From: Saccharomonospora azurea NA-128
GTDB lineage: Bacteria > Actinomycetota > Actinomycetes > Mycobacteriales > Pseudonocardiaceae
DNA length: 64,000 nt
Reading direction: 5' to 3'
Assembly: GCF_000231055.2 (NCBI RefSeq)
Contig: NZ_CM001466.1
Location: forward strand, 1,542,900 to 1,606,899
Part shown: positions 52,924 through 61,869 of the stretch, one piece after another
Layout of the letters: each line of letters starts with the position of its first letter
Numbering within the stretch: the first letter of the stretch is position 1
Position numbers and translations under genes: made by a program
Notes under the pieces: generated by a model
Databases searched by the model: none
Seen by the model: the letters and a program-made list of their open reading frames with translations, nothing else
What the model was told of the DNA's origin: nothing

Positions 52924-53445
52924 TCAGGTGTCGACGTCGTCGAGCAGGGTCGATTCCGCTCCCGCGTCGCGGAGCTCGTCGCGGACGACACGGTAGGACA
53001 GGCCCTGGGGATAGCCCTTGCGCGCCAGCATGCCGATCAGGCGGCGGGTCGCCTTCTGCTCGTCGACGTCGCCCATCGTCCGGAGTTTCTTCCGCACCAG
53101 TTCCCGAGCGCGTTGCTCCTCGGCCTCGGCGTCGATCTCCCCCGCCGCCTCGGCCGCGATCTCCGGGTCGACGCCCTTGCGGCGCAGCTCGGCCACCAAC
53201 GCCCGGCGAGCGAGACCCCGGTAGGTGTGCCGGGATCGCACCCACATCTCCGCGAACGCGGCGTCGTCGACCAACCCCGCGTCGTCGAGCTTGCCGAGAA
53301 GCTTCTCACCGATGTCGTCGGCGAAGCCCTTCCGACGCAGAGCCTGACGCAACTCGTCCTTGGTCCGCGGACGCGCGGCCAGGAGGTCGAAACACACCTC
53401 CTTGGCCTTGCGCCACGCCTCGTCAGGCGGCAGTTCGCGCGTCAA
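52924..53445 (-). CDS. recX: RecA regulator RecX
   Basis: Protein of 173 residues that limits RecA filament growth. Consists of three-helix repeats with LLAARPRTKDELRQALRRKGF, AFAEMWVRSRHTYRGLARRALVAELRRKGV and LIGMLARKGYPQGLSYRVVRDEL. A TTG start 11 bp after the recA stop is used; no strong ribosome binding site is visible, which fits translation coupled to recA. Its stop codon is in the first part of the 21-bp repeat array. Confidence 0.92.
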   Translation of the reverse strand: MTRELPPDEAWRKAKEVCFDLLAARPRTKDELRQALRRKGFADDIGEKLLGKLDDAGLVDDAAFAEMWVRSRHTYRGLARRALVAELRRKGVDPEIAAEAAGEIDAEAEEQRARELVRKKLRTMGDVDEQKATRRLIGMLARKGYPQGLSYRVVRDELRDAGAESTLLDDVDT

Positions 53446-53456
53446 CGCGATCGCCG

Positions 53457-54494
53457 TCAGAAGTCGACGGGAGCGGGCGCGCCGTCCTCGCCCTCCTGGG
53501 CTCCGATGCCGAGTTTCTCCTTGATCTTCTTCTCGATCTCGTTGGCCACGTCCGGGTTCTCCCGCAGAAACCGGCGCGCGTTCTCCTTGCCCTGACCGAG
53601 CTGGTCGCCCTCGTACGTGTACCAGGCACCGGACTTGCGCACGATGGCCTGGTCGACCCCCATGTCGATCAACGAGCCCTCACGGGACACGCCGACGCCG
53701 TACAGGATGTCGAACTCGGCCTGCTTGAACGGCGGCGCGACCTTGTTCTTGACGACCTTGACCCGGGTGCGGTTGCCGACCGGCTCACCGCCGTCCTTCA
53801 GCGTCTCGATCCGGCGCACGTCGAGCCGGACGGAGGAGTAGAACTTCAGCGCCTTACCACCGGTGGTGGTCTCCGGGCTACCGAACATGACGCCGACCTT
53901 CTCGCGGAGCTGGTTGATGAAGATCGCCGTGGTGCCCGAGTTGTGCAACGCACCGGTGATCTTCCGCAGCGCCTGGCTCATCAACCGCGCCTGGAGACCC
54001 ACGTGGGAGTCGCCCATCTCGCCCTCGATCTCGGCACGCGGCACGAGAGCGGCGACGGAGTCGATGACCAGGATGTCGAGCGCACCGGACCGGATCAGCA
54101 TGTCGGCGATCTCCAACGCCTGCTCACCGGTGTCGGGCTGGGACACCAGCAGAGCGTCGGTGTCGACGCCCAGCGCCTTGGCGTACTCGGGATCGAGCGC
54201 GTGTTCGGCGTCGATGAAGGCCGCGACGCCCCCGGCCTTCTGTGCGTTGGCCACCGCGTGCAGCGCGACCGTCGTCTTACCCGACGACTCCGGGCCGTAG
54301 ATCTCCACGATGCGCCCCCGCGGCAGGCCGCCGATACCCAGCGCGATGTCCAGCGCGATGGCTCCCGTGGGAATGACCTCGACCGGCGGCCTGGTGTCCT
54401 CACCGAGCCGCATCACCGATCCCTTGCCGAACTGCTTGTCGATCTGGGCAAGGGCCAGGTCGAGCGCTTTGCCCTTGTCCGGTGCTGCTGCCAT
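53457..54494 (-). CDS. recA: Recombinase RecA
   Basis: DNA strand-exchange ATPase and co-protease for LexA cleavage; 345 residues. Walker [10 protein letters not shown] (67-75), the [19 protein letters not shown]1 region, the [36 protein letters not shown] block and the acidic end [12 protein letters not shown]. No intein. ATG at 54494 has AGGTGG 5 nt upstream; the GTG at 54503 would leave no spacing. Upstream lie a LexA box and a PafBC-type promoter. Confidence 0.98.
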
Positions 54495-54597
54495 GGAATC
54501 CACCTCATCGGCTGCTCATCGGGCCCGAGTACGCGCAGTCGTGCATCGTGCAGACCTGCTGTCGGAGTCCGAGGGATGTCTGTGTTGTTCGGGTCCG

Positions 54598-54746: not shown

Positions 54747-54941
54747 TCACCGCCGCTCGCGCGGCACGTCGAACTCCGCGCACACCTCGTGCCAGACCTC
54801 CTTGGCCGGAACACCCTCCCGGAGCGCCTGGTCGGCCGTCCGGCCCCCGAGACCGCTGAGCACGTGGTCGGACGCCAGGGTCTCGGCACGCATCGCGCCG
54901 AACTCCTCCGCCATGAGTCGCCGGAACACCGTGATTCGCAT
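54747..54941 (-). CDS. DUF3046 family protein
   Basis: Small protein of 64 residues: MRITVFRRLMAEEFG at the start, DHVLSGLGGRTADQALREG and VWHEVCAEFDVPRERR at the end. The family accompanies recA in many actinobacteria (Rv2738c). Function unknown; no membrane segment. ATG at 54941 with a weak ribosome binding site. It lies 252 bp upstream of recA, and the recA SOS box is between them. Confidence 0.85.
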   Translation of the reverse strand: MRITVFRRLMAEEFGAMRAETLASDHVLSGLGGRTADQALREGVPAKEVWHEVCAEFDVPRERR

Positions 54942-55004
54942 CGGCACCAGCGTAGTCATTCCCGCCGTCCCCACGGTGCACCCGGCAGGCCGTAGGGTTG
55001 TCAC

Positions 55005-55127
55005 ATGGTGTTGTCGCAGGCCTTCTCCGAGCTCCAGTCGACCGCGCTCACGCTGGCGTCGATCGCGGTGGTCGGCAGCGCGCTGGTCGTCCTGATCATC
55101 ACCGCACGCCGCAACCGGAGGAAGTGA
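55005..55127 (+). CDS. Small single-span membrane protein (40 residues)
   Basis: MVLSQAFSELQSTALTLASI followed by AVVGSALVVLIITARRNRRK: a short external N-terminus, one membrane span (about 17-33) and a positively charged RRNRRK end, predicted N-out/C-in. It was too short for routine gene calling but has GC-rich third positions throughout. A TAGGGT hexamer (54993-54998) sits 6 nt before the ATG with no ribosome binding site, indicating a leaderless mRNA. It converges with the Hsp70-like gene, 7 bp apart. Function unknown. Confidence 0.65.
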   Translation: MVLSQAFSELQSTALTLASIAVVGSALVVLIITARRNRRK

Positions 55128-55128
55128 A

Positions 55129-55146
55129 CCGGGCTCACTCGCCCGG
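55129..55146. terminator. Short hairpin between converging genes
   Basis: CCGGGC / GCCCGG stem with a 6-nt loop covering the Hsp70-like stop codon and the end of the small membrane gene. No U tract; weak. Confidence 0.4.
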
Positions 55147-57081
55147 CTGCACCGTCTTCTCGAAGTAGTCCGCCATGTCGTCCGGCGGAGTCGCCTCTCC
55201 GTCACCGGTGACGTTGACCTGGTAGACGAAGCCGGCGAGCGGGCGATCGTCCACGGTGAACACCAGGACCGACGAGTTGCGGCCCGCCGAGGCGGCGTAG
55301 CGGCCGGACAGGCCGTTGCCCTTCCACTCCGCCTGCACCTGGTCACCACCGCCCGTGCGGCTCAACAGACCGTCGGTGTACTGCTCGATGGTCTCGGTGG
55401 AGCCCGAGTGGATGTACGTGACCTGCGCGCCGGGCAGGCCCGGGGCCGCGCACGTCACCGTGACACCGAGCTCCTGCTCGTCGGGAGGCGCCGCCGCACC
55501 CTGCCCCATCCCCGGGGAGCAGTTGTTGTCCTTCGACACGCCGCCCGCGAGCTGGCGCAGGCACCCGGTGAAGCCCTCCTCGTCGGGGTCGCCGGGCTTC
55601 CGGCACTCCTGCGCCGTGTAGGTCGCGGCCGACGACGACGGCCAGAACACGAACGCGGCCACACCCCCGAGCACGGCCACGGCGGTGACGGCGGCGGCCA
55701 CGAGCCAGCCCGTGCGGCGCTTGCCCTTCGCGCCGTCACCGCCGGAGTTCGGCACCGACGGAAAGTGGGCGGGCTGGGTGCTCAGCGGACCGGAGGGCGG
55801 CCCGGAAGGAGGCCCGGAGACGGGGGCCGGGGAGTGCTGGCCGCCCGGGGCGCCGGGATAGGGCCCGGTGGGCCCGGAGTGGTACTGCGGTGTGGCCTGC
55901 TGGGGCGGCACCATCCCGGCCGGGGGCGAGTACGGGGCGGTGGTGGCCGCGACGGCCGGGCCCTGCGCACCGACCACGTCGCCGTCGACCTGCTGCGTGC
56001 GCATGCTGAGGCCGTCGGGGCCGACGTGGTGGGCGCCGAACGCCACCGCCGTCTCGGGCTGGTCGAGGCTGGAGGGCACGACGCCGAGCTTCTCCGCGAG
56101 CAGGCTGCCCACGAGCGGCAGGCGACTCGACCCGCCGACGAGGTAGATTCCGGCGAGCTGGTCGGGGGACAGACCGGCCGAGCGCACCGTGCGCGCGAGC
56201 AGCTCGACGCTGCGCAGCATCGTGGGCCGCACCAGCGCCTCGAGTTCCGCCCTCGTCACCAGCACGTCGGAGAACGGCTCCGGCATCGGAACCTCGGTCT
56301 GCGGGAGCCGGGAGAGGGCTTCCTTGGCGGCTTTCACGTCCTCCTGCAACGCCCTGCGGGCGCGGCGGTCGGCCGTCGACTCGGGGCGCAGGAGGCGCTG
56401 CCAACGCTGCGGGTCGCTGTGCGAGACCTCGCGGCCGACGTGCACCAGCAGGGCCTGGTCGACGTCGAGCCCGCCGAGGTCGGGCAGCCCGTCCTCGGCC
56501 AGCACCGTGAAACCGTTCGGCGTGGCACCGAGCACGGCGACGTCGAACGTGCCCGCACCCAGGTCGTAGACGGCGAGCGTCTGCCCGGGCGCGAGCCCCT
56601 TGCCCGGGAACGACGCGAAGTGTGCGGCGGCGGCGACCGGCTCGGGCACCAGCGTGATCGCGTTGCCCATGCCCGCGAGGCGGGCGGCGGAGAGCAGCAC
56701 GTTGCGGCGCACCGGCCCCCACTGGGCGGGGTGCGACAGGCGGACCTCCTCGGGCGGTTCCCCGCCGAGTTGCCGCACGGTCTCCTCCAGCACCCGGCGC
56801 AGCACGGCGGCCAGGGCCTCGTTGACCGGCACCACGTCGGTCCCGAGCAGGAGGGTCTGCTCGTCCACCCGTCGCTTGGGGTTGGGTTCGAAGCGGGTGG
56901 GATCGAGCCGGGCGCGGCGCTCGGCGTCCCGGCCCACCACGAGGCCTCCCTGCTCCTCGGCGAACACGGCCGACGGCATCGTGGCCGAACCGTCGACGTC
57001 GATGACCCTGGGTTGTCGCCCGTGTGCCGAGAGCACGGCTACAGTGTTCGACGTACCGAGATCGACGGACAGAATCCCCAC
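55135..57081 (-). CDS. Membrane-anchored Hsp70-like protein with external domain
   Basis: 648 residues. The N-terminal half (1-355) is an Hsp70 ATPase: phosphate-1 loop VDLGTSNT (6-13), DLGAGTFDVAVLG (173-185), VGGSSRLPLV (315-324). No substrate-binding domain follows. Instead there is a Pro/Gly/Gln-rich linker (375-450), a single span (about 459-480, GWLVAAAVTAVAVLGGVAAFVFW) and an external domain (485-648) with four Cys (493, 507, 521, 544) that could form two disulfides. The GTG at 57081 has GGGAG upstream. An open frame continues antisense through the Lhr gene but is an artefact. Divergent from lhr. Could couple cytoplasmic ATP state to an outside-facing domain; inference. Confidence 0.87.
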   Translation of the reverse strand: MGILSVDLGTSNTVAVLSAHGRQPRVIDVDGSATMPSAVFAEEQGGLVVGRDAERRARLDPTRFEPNPKRRVDEQTLLLGTDVVPVNEALAAVLRRVLEETVRQLGGEPPEEVRLSHPAQWGPVRRNVLLSAARLAGMGNAITLVPEPVAAAAHFASFPGKGLAPGQTLAVYDLGAGTFDVAVLGATPNGFTVLAEDGLPDLGGLDVDQALLVHVGREVSHSDPQRWQRLLRPESTADRRARRALQEDVKAAKEALSRLPQTEVPMPEPFSDVLVTRAELEALVRPTMLRSVELLARTVRSAGLSPDQLAGIYLVGGSSRLPLVGSLLAEKLGVVPSSLDQPETAVAFGAHHVGPDGLSMRTQQVDGDVVGAQGPAVAATTAPYSPPAGMVPPQQATPQYHSGPTGPYPGAPGGQHSPAPVSGPPSGPPSGPLSTQPAHFPSVPNSGGDGAKGKRRTGWLVAAAVTAVAVLGGVAAFVFWPSSSAATYTAQECRKPGDPDEEGFTGCLRQLAGGVSKDNNCSPGMGQGAAAPPDEQELGVTVTCAAPGLPGAQVTYIHSGSTETIEQYTDGLLSRTGGGDQVQAEWKGNGLSGRYAASAGRNSSVLVFTVDDRPLAGFVYQVNVTGDGEATPPDDMADYFEKTVQPGE

Positions 57082-57126
57082 CAGTTCTCCCTTGCCGAGG
57101 TTTGCGAGAAACCGCGGTGATGCTTT

Positions 57127-57145
57127 CACGTCGAGCCTCGACGTG
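57127..57145. promoter_or_regulatory. Perfect 19-bp palindrome between the Hsp70-like gene and lhr
   Basis: CACGTCGAGCCTCGACGTG: 9-bp arms around one central base, in the 141-bp divergent promoter region, 46 bp from the Hsp70-like start and 77 bp from lhr. Likely operator of an unknown regulator. Confidence 0.55.
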
Positions 57146-57222
57146 GCGACGCACCCGCCGCATTCCGCCGTGCCGATTCGCGTCCCGGGACGAAATGTCG
57201 GTGCGGCACGCATGATGGAGGC

Positions 57223-60200
57223 GTGCCTGACGACGTCCGCCCCGATCCGCTCGAATCGTTCTCGCCCGCCACGCGGGACTGGTTCACGAGCGCGTTCGAG
57301 GCTCCCACGGCCGCGCAGCTGGGCGCGTGGCGAGCGGCGCAGGACGGCGAGCACGCGCTCGTCATCGCCCCCACCGGGTCCGGCAAGACGCTGGCCGCGT
57401 TCCTGTGGGCTCTCGACCGGTTGGCCACGGTGTCCCCACCCGCGGAACGGCGACGGCGCTGCCGGGTGCTGTACGTGTCGCCGCTCAAGGCACTCGCCGT
57501 GGACGTCCAGCGCAACCTCCGGGCGCCGCTGACCGGAATCTCGCAGGCCTCGCGCAGGCGGGGTCTGGAGCCCCCGGACATCACCGTGGGTACGCGCACG
57601 GGCGACACCACGCCCGCCGAACGGCGCGCGTTCGCGCGCACCCCGCCCGACATCCTGGTGACCACGCCGGAGTCGCTGTTCCTCCTCCTGACGTCCGCGG
57701 CGCGGGAGTCGCTGCGCGGCGTCGACACGGTGATCGTCGACGAGGTCCACGCGGTGGCCGGCAGCAAGCGCGGCGCACACCTCGCGCTGTCGCTGGAACG
57801 GCTCGACGACCTGCTCGACCGGCCCGCCCAGCGCATCGGACTCTCGGCCACGGTCCGGCCCGTCGACGAGGTGGGGGCGTTCCTCACCGGCGGCCGACCC
57901 GTGCGCGTCGTGCAACCCCCGCTCGCGAAGACGATCGAGGTCCGGGTGGAGGTCCCCGTCGAGGACATGGGCGCGCTCGACGCCCGGCCCGCGCGCACGG
58001 AACCCGCGCCGCTGCCCACAGAGGCCGACCCGGACGCCGGCCTCGACTTCCCGGAACCGGTCCCACGGCCGTCGATCTGGCCCGCCGTCGAGGAACGGGT
58101 GCTCGACCTGGTCCGCGCCCATCGCTCCACGATCGTGTTCGCCAACTCGCGCCGCCTCGCCGAACGCCTCACCGCGCGGCTCAACGAACTGGCCGCGGAG
58201 CGCGAGGAACTGGCCGCCGACCTCGACGACCCGGCCACGACCGCGTTCCCCGCCGAGGCGGTCGGTCAGTCGGGCACCACCCGCCCGCAGGCGGAGACGG
58301 CGCCCGTGGTGGCCCGAGCGCACCACGGCTCGATGTCGCGGGAACAACGCAGCCGGGTCGAGGAGGACCTCAAGTCGGGGACGCTGCCGTGCGTCGTGGC
58401 GACCTCGTCGCTGGAGCTCGGCATCGACATGGGGGCCGTGGACCTCGTGATCCAGGTGGAGGCCCCGCCCACGGTGGCGTCGGGCCTGCAGCGCGTCGGC
58501 CGCGCCGGGCACCAAGTCGGAGCGGTGTCGACGGGCGTGATCTTCCCGAAGTTCCGGGGCGACCTCGTCTCGTGCGCCGTCGTGGCCGAGCGCATGGCCG
58601 AGGGCGCGATCGAGGCCGTGCGCTATCCCCGCAACCCGCTGGACGTGCTGGCACAGCACGTCGTGGCCATGGTGGCCGTGGAGCCGCGGACGGTGGAGGA
58701 GGTGGCGGCGACCGTCCGTCGGGCCGCGCCGTTCGCGGCTCTGCCCGACGACGCGTTGCACGCCGTCCTCGACATGCTCGCGGGGCGGTACCCGAGCGAG
58801 GAGTTCGGCGAGCTCCGCGCCCGCATCACCTGGGACCGCGTCACGGGCGTGCTGGAGGGCCGGCCCGGTGCGCAACGGCTGGCGGTCACCTCCGGAGGCA
58901 CGATCCCCGACCGCGGTCTGTTCACCGTGATGACGCCGGGCGACGGCGAACGGCCGGGGTCCCGCGTGGGCGAGCTCGACGAGGAGATGGTGTACGAGTC
59001 GCGGGTCGGCGACACCATCCTGCTGGGCACGTCGTCGTGGCGGATCACCGACATCACCCACGACCGCGTCCTCGTGGTACCCGCGCCCGGCCACCCCGCG
59101 CGCATGCCGTTCTGGCGAGGTGACGCCCAGGGCAGGCCGCTGGAGTTGGGCCGGGCGCTGGGGCGGCTGCTGCGTTTTCTGTCCACGTCGGAGCGTGCCA
59201 AGGCGCTTCGACGTGCCGAGGACGCCGGTCTCGACGAGTGGGCGGCCGCGAACCTGGTGTCCTACGTGGACGAACAGCGTGAGGCCACTCGGCACGTGCC
59301 GAGCGACCGGACGGTGCTGTTGGAGCGGTTCCGCGACGAGCTGGGCGACTGGCGCGTGGTCGTGCACTCCCCGTTCGGCGCCCAGGTCAACGCGCCGTGG
59401 GCACTCGCCGTGGCCGCCCGGCTGCGCGAACGGCGCGGGGTGGACGCGCAGGTCGCCCACTCCGACGACGGGATCGTGCTGAGGCTGCCGGACGCACTCG
59501 ACGACGAGGGCCGGGAGGTGACGATCGGCGCCGAGGACGTCGTCCTCGATCCGGACGAGGTGGAGTCGCTGATCACCGCGGAGGTCGGCGGGTCGGCGTT
59601 GTTCGCGGCCCGGTTCCGCGAGTGCGCGGCCCGGTCGCTCCTGCTCCCTCGACGAGATCCGCGACGGCGCACTCCCCTGTGGCAGCAGCGGCAACGGGCG
59701 TCGCAGCTGCTCGGCGTCGCGGCGAAGTACGAGCGCTTCCCCGTGGTGCTGGAGGCCATGCGGGAGTGCCTCCAGGACGTCTACGACGTCGGCGGGTTGC
59801 GAGAGCTGATGGCCGACATCGCGGGGCGTTCCGTGCGGGTCGTGGAGGTCGAGACCCCGTCGGCCTCGCCGTTCGCGCGCAGCCTGCTGTTCGGGTACGT
59901 GGGCATGTTCCTGTACGAGACCGACGCGCCGCTGGCCGAGCGGCGGGCGGCGGCGCTGTCGCTCGACTCGGCGCTGCTCGCGGAACTCCTGGGCACCGAG
60001 GCGATCCGCGAACTGCTCGACGCCGACGTCGTGGCGGAGGTCGAGCGGTCGCTGCAACGGCTCGACCAGGACCGGCACGCGCGCGGGCCCGAGGACACGG
60101 CGGATCTGTTGCGGTTCCTCGGCGACCTCACGCGCGACGAGGCAGCGGCCCGCGGTGTGCGGCCCGCTTGGTTGGACGAGCTGGTGGCGCAGCGGCGGGC

Positions 60201-61869
60201 GATCGTCGTACGCATCGCGGGCGAGGAACGCCACCTGGCGATCGAGGACGCGGGCCGGGTCCGCGACGCCCTCGGGGTGGCACTCCCGGTCGGGGTGCCC
60301 GAGGCGTTCACCGAGCCCGTCGCCGACCCGTTGGGCGACCTGCTCCGCCGCTACGCGCGGACGCGAGGGCCGTTCTCGGCGCACGACGCCGCGGCGCGGT
60401 TCGGGCTCGGGCTCGCGGTGGTGACCGGCGTGCTCGACCGGTTGACCGCCGAGGGCACCCTCGTCCGAGGCGAGCTGCGCCCGCAGGGCCACGAGGCGGG
60501 TACGGAGTACTGCGACGCCGCCGTGCTGCGCCGGTTGCGGCGCGCGTCGCTGGCACGGCTGCGTGCCGAGGTCGAACCCGTCGAGCCCCCTGCGCTGGGC
60601 CGGTTCCTGCCGAGCTGGCACGGCATCGGCGCCCACCGGTCCGCCCGGTGGACACCCACGGCCGACGACGTGCTCGCCGTGGTCGAGCAGCTGGCCGGCG
60701 CGCCACTGCCCGCGAGCGCCGTGGAGTCGCTGATCCTGCCGAACAGACTGCCCGGCTACTATCCCGCGCTGCTCGACGAGCTCATGGTCGCCGGGGAGGT
60801 GACGTGGTGCGGCTGCGGCGCACTGTCGGGTGGCGACGGGTGGATCGCGCTGGCTCCCGCGGACGTCGCCGAGGCGCTGCTTCCGGACGTGGAGGACACC
60901 TCGACGCACGGCCCCGTGCACGAGGCCGTGGTGTCGGCGCTGGAAGGGGGCGGACTGTTCTTCCGCCAGATCGTCGACCGGGTGACCGTGGCGCTCGACC
61001 AACCGGTCAACGACGCGGACGTGGTGGCCGCGCTGTGGGACCTCGTGTGGGCGGGACTGGTCTCGGGGGACACCCTGGCCCCGCTGCGCGCCCAGGTCTC
61101 GGGCAAGGGAGCCGCGCACAAACCGCGCCGGTCGACGCCCCGGGGCCGGTACGCACGCCTGCGCGCGGCCCGGCCCGCGATGCCCAGCCGCACCGGTCCG
61201 CCCACCGTCGCCGGACGGTGGGGCCTGACCCCACCTCGCGAGACCGACCCCACGCGACGCGCCCACGCGCGGACGGAGTCGTTCCTCGAACGGCACGGCG
61301 TGCTGACGCGCGGAGCACTGGACACCGAGCGCGTCAGCGGCGGCTTCTCCGCCGTCTACCGGGTGTTGCGGGGCATGGAGGACTCGGGCCAGGTCATTCG
61401 CGGCTACGTCGTGGAGGGTCTGGGTGCGGCTCAGTTCGCCGTGCGCGGCGCTGTCGACCGGCTGCGCGCGGTCGCGGACGCCGGAGGCTGGCGGCCGGAA
61501 CACCGGGCGGTCGTCCTCGCCGCCGCGGACCCCGCGCAACCGTACGGCGCGGCTCTCGACTGGCCCGCCGTCGTGGGCGACACGAAGCACCGCCCCGCTC
61601 GCAAGGCCGGGGCGCTCACCGTGCTCGTCGACGGCACACCCGCGATGTACGTCGAGCGAGGCGGTCGGTCGCTGCTGTCGTTCACCGACGATCCGGTCAC
61701 CCTGCGTACCGCCGCCGAGGCCCTGTCGAACGCGGTGCGCGAGGGCTGGCTCGGGCAGTTGCAGGTGCAGCGGGCCGACGGAGAACAGGTGTTGACCTCG
61801 GAGCTCGCCGTCGTGCTGCGTGAGGCCGGTTTCCGTGCGACCCCGAAGGGGTTGCGGCTGCGGGCGTAG
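57223..61869 (+). CDS. lhr: ATP-dependent helicase Lhr
   Basis: Large superfamily-2 DNA repair helicase, 1548 residues. Motif I APTGSGKT (49-56), TTPESL (motif Ib), DEVHAVAG (motif II), LSATVRP (motif III), then helicase-C with GIDMGAVDLVIQ and QRVGRAGH; the long C-terminal half (about 700-1548) is the Lhr-specific winged-helix and beta-barrel region. GTG start has CATGAT 6 nt before it and an overly close GGAGG, so the mRNA is probably leaderless. In mycobacteria this protein is damage-induced; no LexA box was seen here. Confidence 0.96.
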   Translation: MPDDVRPDPLESFSPATRDWFTSAFEAPTAAQLGAWRAAQDGEHALVIAPTGSGKTLAAFLWALDRLATVSPPAERRRRCRVLYVSPLKALAVDVQRNLRAPLTGISQASRRRGLEPPDITVGTRTGDTTPAERRAFARTPPDILVTTPESLFLLLTSAARESLRGVDTVIVDEVHAVAGSKRGAHLALSLERLDDLLDRPAQRIGLSATVRPVDEVGAFLTGGRPVRVVQPPLAKTIEVRVEVPVEDMGALDARPARTEPAPLPTEADPDAGLDFPEPVPRPSIWPAVEERVLDLVRAHRSTIVFANSRRLAERLTARLNELAAEREELAADLDDPATTAFPAEAVGQSGTTRPQAETAPVVARAHHGSMSREQRSRVEEDLKSGTLPCVVATSSLELGIDMGAVDLVIQVEAPPTVASGLQRVGRAGHQVGAVSTGVIFPKFRGDLVSCAVVAERMAEGAIEAVRYPRNPLDVLAQHVVAMVAVEPRTVEEVAATVRRAAPFAALPDDALHAVLDMLAGRYPSEEFGELRARITWDRVTGVLEGRPGAQRLAVTSGGTIPDRGLFTVMTPGDGERPGSRVGELDEEMVYESRVGDTILLGTSSWRITDITHDRVLVVPAPGHPARMPFWRGDAQGRPLELGRALGRLLRFLSTSERAKALRRAEDAGLDEWAAANLVSYVDEQREATRHVPSDRTVLLERFRDELGDWRVVVHSPFGAQVNAPWALAVAARLRERRGVDAQVAHSDDGIVLRLPDALDDEGREVTIGAEDVVLDPDEVESLITAEVGGSALFAARFRECAARSLLLPRRDPRRRTPLWQQRQRASQLLGVAAKYERFPVVLEAMRECLQDVYDVGGLRELMADIAGRSVRVVEVETPSASPFARSLLFGYVGMFLYETDAPLAERRAAALSLDSALLAELLGTEAIRELLDADVVAEVERSLQRLDQDRHARGPEDTADLLRFLGDLTRDEAAARGVRPAWLDELVAQRRAIVVRIAGEERHLAIEDAGRVRDALGVALPVGVPEAFTEPVADPLGDLLRRYARTRGPFSAHDAAARFGLGLAVVTGVLDRLTAEGTLVRGELRPQGHEAGTEYCDAAVLRRLRRASLARLRAEVEPVEPPALGRFLPSWHGIGAHRSARWTPTADDVLAVVEQLAGAPLPASAVESLILPNRLPGYYPALLDELMVAGEVTWCGCGALSGGDGWIALAPADVAEALLPDVEDTSTHGPVHEAVVSALEGGGLFFRQIVDRVTVALDQPVNDADVVAALWDLVWAGLVSGDTLAPLRAQVSGKGAAHKPRRSTPRGRYARLRAARPAMPSRTGPPTVAGRWGLTPPRETDPTRRAHARTESFLERHGVLTRGALDTERVSGGFSAVYRVLRGMEDSGQVIRGYVVEGLGAAQFAVRGAVDRLRAVADAGGWRPEHRAVVLAAADPAQPYGAALDWPAVVGDTKHRPARKAGALTVLVDGTPAMYVERGGRSLLSFTDDPVTLRTAAEALSNAVREGWLGQLQVQRADGEQVLTSELAVVLREAGFRATPKGLRLRA

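Follow-up and report, generated by a model that had tools for sequence, protein, structure and literature searches.

Introduction

The usual picture of Hsp70 is that of a soluble folding machine with two domains. Here we describe hsp70TM, a gene of Saccharomonospora azurea NA-128 that encodes an Hsp70-type ATPase domain followed by a proline-rich linker, one membrane span and an external domain (exodomain) with four cysteines. It lies in a stretch of 64,000 nucleotides (contig NZ_CM001466.1, positions 1,542,900 to 1,606,899 of the forward strand; hereafter the window, numbered from its first letter). The open-access literature yielded no description of this gene, most subscription journals lying outside the search.

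Several described systems share parts of this arrangement. DnaK and HscA have the ATPase fold and catalytic residues in common with hsp70TM, which lacks their substrate-binding domain and lid and carries a span and an external domain instead. The type VII secretion family of Rv3446c (TIGR03931) has the same chassis of Hsp70 ATPase, linker and span; its member in the window genome (L004) differs in standing beside an FtsK/SpoIIIE gene and in belonging to a separate ATPase clade. The gene rv3446c has been named as an ESX-4 gene, and Hsp70 is not mentioned in the accessible part of that source (PMC4791881). Hsp70 proteins without a peptide-binding domain occur, together with GrpE, in the GAP1-N2 GTPase conflict systems (PMC7159879). 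There, too, the Hsp70 domain stands alone, and GrpE is nearby. The window copy of hsp70TM has lhr, DUF3046, recA and recX as neighbours, and a span and external domain of which the accessible part of that paper makes no mention.

The mycobacterial phage-shock-protein (PSP) system comprises ClgR, PspA, PspM and PspN. According to a PSP survey whose main text contains no occurrence of Hsp70 (PMC11237479), DUF3046 forms the C-terminal part of M. tuberculosis PspN, where it was inferred to be a translocated duplicate limited to mycobacteria. Rv2743c has been placed downstream of the PspA homologue in an operon (PMC3062566). Some relatives of hsp70TM lie directly downstream of pspA or pspM, and DUF3046 is found in both settings, but the psp genes of the window genome lie elsewhere. 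In the Chlamydomonas chloroplast, HSP70B, CDJ2 and CGE1 assemble and disassemble VIPP1, a relative of PspA, and the system works with a J-protein and GrpE (PMC10602608); like PspA, VIPP1 is a member of the ESCRT-III superfamily (PMC8281802). This is an Hsp70 ATPase working on a PspA-family protein, and its likeness to hsp70TM is one of functional analogy only. HSP70B is a full-length Hsp70, unlike hsp70TM.

Domain architecture of hsp70TM

The gene occupies positions 55135..57081 on the minus strand and encodes 648 amino acids plus a stop from a GTG start, as judged from its translation, the conserved start region and Pfam; AAGGGAGA, ahead of the start on the same strand, was read by eye as a putative ribosome site. 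The original prediction had given the span 55005..57222, which contains the gene but extends at its far end to the base before the divergent lhr frame. A 2151-codon open frame at 55135-61590 crosses both hsp70TM and the antisense strand of lhr, and the gene is its 648-codon end only.

Residues 1-355 (56017..57081, minus strand) constitute the nucleotide-binding (ATPase) domain by Pfam, by phmmer alignment to DnaK and by catalytic residues, and through this domain hsp70TM is a member of the Hsp70 superfamily. Pfam HSP70 (PF00012) scores 114 bits (cut-off 20.6), its best stretch aligning residues 88-350 with model positions 112-368 of 599. Past residue 352 the Pfam scan gave no match of any kind and model positions above 368 remained unmatched; as far as Pfam can tell, the canonical DnaK-type substrate-binding domain and lid are missing, in agreement with the original prediction of an ATPase half standing alone. 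FGGY_C was a sub-threshold Pfam match, and the 13 NCBIfam families matched at E ≤ 1, mostly of Hsp70 type, were all under their own cut-offs; TIGR03931, carried by L004, was not among them.

The phmmer alignment to a DnaK of known structure spans residues 3-63 and 90-351, and between the two blocks hsp70TM has about 25 residues fewer (query 63-90 against DnaK 64-116). Residues D7, K69, E147, D173 and T178, which we take to correspond to DnaK D8, K70, E171, D194 and T199, are identical in 95/95 aligned homologues, so that the checked catalytic set appears intact; the equivalences come from the pairwise alignment and standard DnaK numbering, with K69 placed by eye, as the alignment omits residues 64-89. 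Median identity between the window copy and 94 homologues is 85.6% in the ATPase domain and, for the same proteins, 56.1% in the exodomain, a pattern that suggests a fixed motor with a diverging outside part.

The ATPase domain is followed by a poorly conserved linker (residues 356-455; 55717..56016, minus strand) with 21 Pro and 17 Gly, and then by a single span (residues 460-478; 55648..55704, minus strand) recognized by hydropathy and as a helix in the AlphaFold2 model. KGKRR precedes the span, and because these basic residues stand before it, the predicted topology is N-in, C-out. The external domain (residues 489-648; 55138..55617, minus strand), delimited by alignments and AlphaFold2, is kept in 94/95 homologues. 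Its cysteines 493, 507, 521 and 544 are conserved in 94, 94, 91 and 95 of the 95 aligned proteins. One miss at each of three positions comes from L083:4162-5970, which has another exodomain; the remaining misses at Cys 521 are L051, L053 and L054, two of which (L051 and L054) do have the cysteine in a better alignment of 38 proteins. All four are invariant in that alignment, which consists of 39 representatives under 80% identity minus L083:4162-5970, omitted by choice. Since the cysteines are even in number, near-invariant and located outside, the domain is probably disulfide-bonded. AlphaFold2, run with the 38 sequences, gave seven strands and several helices at a pLDDT of 94.3 and a pTM of 0.90 (pLDDT 91.3 with the span included). 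The predicted sequence of Pro-rich linker, one span and four-Cys external domain was borne out.

The exodomain matched no Pfam family at E ≤ 0.1 in the window copy, and across the 38 members three families appeared with one isolated weak match each (best E 0.0056); judged by Pfam, it is not a known extracellular sensor domain of the kind found in kinase-type transmembrane receptors. Two other candidates were rejected: the NCBIfam match to Rv0361 is weak and falls on the span (E 0.0082; 16.3 bits, cut-off 37), and the PHROGs matches cover residues 50-350 only. We therefore treat the exodomain as an unassigned domain. Weak structural hits in the PDB recurred for PsbP, DcrB, Eag chaperones and TiME at TM-scores of about 0.2-0.4; they hint at a Mog1/PsbP-like fold, which we do not claim for the exodomain.

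Conservation and genomic neighbourhood

Relatives were compared in the best 80 loci of 99 relatives from a scan of genome contigs, which with the window made 81 loci. They come from contigs titled Amycolatopsis, Prauserella, Actinokineospora, Actinophytocola, Saccharomonospora and other genera, which we take to be Pseudonocardiaceae, and hsp70TM is a well-conserved variant of Hsp70. Its neighbourhood is conserved as well. By tblastn, lhr was found near hsp70TM in 77 of the 81 loci, DUF3046 in 77, recA in 76 and recX in 75, some of the missing neighbours being due to contig ends. In the window, the divergent neighbour lhr (57223..61869, plus strand) encodes a helicase with Lhr winged-helix and DEAD domains. 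The 64-residue DUF3046 protein (54747..54941; PF11248, 102.7 bits, cut-off 25), recA (53457..54503; PF00154, 475.8 bits) and recX (52924..53445; three RecX domains) all lie on the minus strand. With lhr, a small open reading frame (ORF), DUF3046 and recA as its neighbours, hsp70TM does not belong to a type VII secretion cluster.

Two copies of hsp70TM are present in 13 loci and three in L083. One of the three tandem genes, L083:4162-5970, has an exodomain unlike the others, with four cysteines at other places and no Pfam match.

Related branches

A profile of 39 proteins matched 92/200 genomes of the order at E ≤ 1e-20. At class level it matched 17/246 genomes at 1e-60, to which the window's order contributes three, its own genome included; as the cut-offs differ, the counts are not comparable. 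Among 77 reading frames read for architecture, redundant and cut frames included, the plan of ATPase, linker and span recurs; the external part measures about 150 to 430 residues or is absent, and some frames have several spans. Tail-anchored forms without an external part include L140-L142, L117-L121 and L123. In ten of the 77 frames a simple hydropathy scan detected no span: L001 (the soluble DnaK), L005, four forms that are large or short (L128, L130, L134 and L149), the cut frames L144 and L150, and L124 and L137, whose matched end had run past the span region. One of these, L005:1114-2538, is a divergent Hsp70-like protein of the window genome with 474 residues; the next frame is P-loop ATPase-like by eye.

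In a quick tree of 67 ATPase domains, with SH-aLRT support only and long branches to DnaK and L005, the lhr-linked copies group together (19 rows, 96), then with same-family paralogues (23 rows, 99), and next with the recA-linked copies that belong to a different family, f4, plus two others (29 rows, SH-aLRT 84, a node not starred). Type VII, dynamin-linked and large forms are set apart. Neighbours of these branches were read in longer stretches, picked from matches and not at random. Paralogues with the four-Cys exodomain (L136-L139; L172:5279-9842) follow a ClpC-like AAA+ gene on the same strand in 4/4 cases (Pfam run on one copy), and the exodomain of these ClpC-linked paralogues is clearly homologous to the window type (hhalign 99.8%, E 2.3e-29). 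Of 20 longer stretches, 11 have a GrpE-like match flanked by two dynamin-like genes, and one more (L170) has dynamin matches without GrpE. In seven of these (L156-L159, L168, L173, L175) the first dynamin starts within 100 nt of the Hsp70 gene on the same strand; in the other dynamin stretches it lies on the opposite strand or at a greater distance, which reaches about 4.6 kb in L174. Pfam confirmed Dynamin_N in four dynamins and GrpE in two genes scanned. The stretch L156:7962-13561 reads Hsp70, dynamin-like, GrpE-like, dynamin-like; its Hsp70, like those of L157-L159, is a tail-anchored one, and other Hsp70 genes in this arrangement encode an external domain. Dynamin-linked and window exodomains gave an hhalign probability of 89% over only 46 columns. 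The type VII paralogue of the window genome, L004:1231-3207, has the TIGR03931 external domain (74.2 bits, cut-off 47.6) and follows an FtsK/SpoIIIE gene read by eye as EccC-type; hhalign detected no relation between its exodomain and that of the window.

In family f4, four genomes (L164-L167) carry pspA, Rv2743c/PspM, hsp70TM, DUF3046, recA and recX in this order and in one direction, and three more (L196-L198) have the same order with no detectable pspM, so that hsp70TM stands in the psp-recA locus in 7 of the 17 f4 loci fetched. The identity of the psp genes was confirmed by PF04012 at 142.7 bits for pspA (one copy scanned) and by PF25587 at 131.9, 148.5 and 133.1 bits for Rv2743c/PspM (three copies scanned). 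The f4 exodomain is related to the window type, f1 (hhalign 97.3%, E 1.6e-11). Two genomes of family f12 (L209 and L210) show an lhr match at a distance of about 5 to 7 kb from pspA, which would fit a former common neighbourhood of lhr, psp and recA.

Proposed function and alternatives

We tentatively favour the reading that hsp70TM is a single-pass, envelope-sensing Hsp70 ATPase that acts on membrane-maintenance or proteostasis machinery; it would then resemble a receptor or a membrane-stress device more than an ordinary chaperone. A cytosolic Hsp70-type ATPase would be held at the membrane by the Pro-rich tether and one span, while the small, probably disulfide-bonded domain outside would read the state of the envelope, be it a ligand, a misfolded exported protein or the redox state. 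The state of the exodomain would bias the nucleotide state or the clustering of the ATPase domains, and these, having no substrate-binding domain, would act at the inner face on assemblies that maintain the membrane or serve proteostasis. The leading candidate target would be PspA-type (ESCRT-III-like) polymers, because of the f4 neighbourhood and the analogy with VIPP1. Anatomy, conservation, intact ATPase residues and neighbour genes are what we observe; orientation, disulfides, sensing, ATP cycle and target are what we infer. Support comes from an ATPase chassis that is retained where the exodomain differs or is absent, and from the relatedness of the exodomain in three branches (window-type, ClpC-linked and recA-linked f4). 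The original prediction was right in architecture, and an envelope signalling or chaperone role would fit the genes beside the relatives (pspA/pspM, ClpC-like, dynamins with GrpE-like); the small-protein partner and palindromic regulator that it included were not supported. Of the refuting conditions named with it, most did not apply, as lhr, DUF3046 and recA recur in the neighbourhood, the exodomain is present in 94/95 homologues and the checked ATPase residues are in place.

A number of observations weigh against this proposal. The substrate-binding domain is missing, no J-protein or GrpE gene was recognized beside window-type copies in the neighbour gene set examined, and the J-domain contact residues of canonical DnaK, which we take to be R167 and N170, are not retained: in the one pairwise DnaK alignment on which their placement rests, they fall on T143 (V in 51, L in 16, T in 10 and S in 10 of 95) and P146 (95/95). 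Foldseek with the exodomain returned 0 matches at E ≤ 0.001 in the PDB and in viral models. The link to psp has its own difficulties. No Hsp70 match accompanies psp and recA in ten of the 17 f4 loci or in two f8 loci (L213, L214) with psp near recA, and for this reason the link may be a single positional event; for statistics, the association of psp with hsp70TM counts as about one event. The psp genes of the window genome, pspM and pspA, are found at 1.311-1.313 Mb together with a gene that is ClgR-like by eye; their distance to hsp70TM, which stays with DUF3046 and recA, is about 285 kb. DUF3046 is itself weak evidence for psp, because the copy in PspN was judged a duplicate limited to mycobacteria. 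The gene orders suggest, as the simplest history, a single ancestral insertion between psp and recA, followed by separation from psp in the window's family and by losses.

A broader proposal, which we consider doubtful, is that membrane-anchored Hsp70 ATPases form a whole class that serves actinomycetes for transmembrane reception or remodelling. They would share the chassis of ATPase, tether and span and have interchangeable exodomains or none, each branch being dedicated to one machine (PspA/ESCRT-III-like polymers, a ClpC-like unfoldase, type VII secretion, or dynamin pairs that have a GrpE-like exchange factor of their own), and the window gene would be the envelope-sensing member ancestral to the psp-recA locus. 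A bacterial branch that dropped the client-binding half and coupled the ATPase across the membrane to an external domain would turn Hsp70 into a device for envelope signalling or membrane remodelling, and would offer a bacterial setting for asking whether Hsp70 ATPases act on PspA/ESCRT-III-like and dynamin-like membrane proteins.

Other explanations draw on the same evidence. The protein could be a membrane-tethered quality-control chaperone, its ATPase serving as an Hsp110-like or exchange-factor-like component or as a DnaK partner for exported or inserted proteins, with the exodomain as an anchor at translocons or secretion sites. We regard this as unlikely: related branches do lie behind a ClpC-like unfoldase, beside a GrpE-like gene or next to an FtsK/SpoIIIE (EccC-type) gene with TIGR03931, but no chaperone or secretion gene was recognized beside the window copy, which in addition has no substrate-binding domain. 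Still less probable is a cytoskeleton-like role, in which an actin-fold ATPase assembles at the membrane in the manner of MreB or FtsA and positions envelope or membrane-remodelling machinery. The tail-anchored relatives that sit with dynamin pairs would suit such a role, as would an MreB_Mbl match just above its Pfam cut-off (28.7 against 27 bits); the Hsp70 score is far higher, however, and a weak MreB match is expected for an Hsp70 from the shared fold, and we rejected an MreB-like identity as a secondary match only. A DNA-damage role at the membrane, suggested by a conserved neighbourhood that is recA-linked in two families, is very unlikely: DUF3046 and recA are still present in same-family genomes that lack hsp70TM, as is lhr in most of the loci read, and the neighbours in other branches are membrane or proteostasis genes.

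The least credible explanation, and one largely refuted, is a two-protein system of hsp70TM and a small membrane protein, which the original prediction had proposed as a pair. The small gene (55005..55127, plus strand) encodes a 40-residue, single-span protein, recognized by sequence, position and hydropathy, and converges on hsp70TM with its end 7 nt from the hsp70TM stop. TAGGGT stands ahead of it at 54993-54998, and since a TAGGGT/TACCGT-like box 6 nt 5' of the start recurs in many loci (by eye), the gene is probably leaderless, as had been predicted. It was found by tblastn in 19/81 loci and, by position, hydropathy and basic tail, in 42/77 (0.0 expected in simple shuffles); every one of the 42 belongs to the 50 loci that leave room of 110 nt or more. 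In six close pairs most differences fall on third codon positions. These counts and substitution patterns mark it as a real gene. Adjacency and convergence thus speak for a pair, but by the same features the small ORF was not found in 35/77 loci with hsp70TM, and the expected order of small ORF, hsp70TM and lhr recurs in relatives as regards lhr and only in part as regards the small ORF. Nine same-family genomes were taken as without hsp70TM, because the full-length profile gave only one or two hits in each at E ≤ 1e-20; in eight the single match (1e-116 to 1e-126) resembled the type VII paralogue (L125 and L148 looked at). Eight of the nine have the small ORF or a positional look-alike beside DUF3046, by sequence in L178, L179, L180 and L182 and by position and hydropathy only in L185, L186, L187 and L189; L184 alone has none there. 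On presence and absence the small gene therefore appears independent of hsp70TM, and an obligate partnership was rejected. With or without hsp70TM, the small gene (with its TAGGGT box, 54993-55127 in the window) lies between DUF3046 and lhr or hsp70TM.

Upstream region

Upstream of hsp70TM, a promoter-like block (57119..57158, minus strand, by eye) consists of GGGT.CGTC, about 20 nt and GCATC. Similar blocks were seen by eye in most, not all, of 22 loci across several genera, and we read this one as a putative promoter. Within it lies a perfect 19-nt inverted repeat (57127..57145) with 9-bp arms and a 1-nt spacer, CACGTCGAG-C-CTCGACGTG. The exact palindrome claimed by the original prediction therefore exists, but its supposed control role finds no backing in near relatives. 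It is absent from all three compared (L006, L009 and the same-genus L099), and the genome has no second exact copy; allowing up to 2 mismatches gives one other place (with 2). As it sits between the conserved-looking blocks GGGT.CGTC and GCATC, it probably overlaps an ordinary promoter. Nine other loci have an inverted repeat of at least 8 bp within 260 nt upstream, each of different sequence, and on these grounds the palindrome was rejected as an operator. One hint in its favour is that the six outermost bases of both arms are retained in L006.

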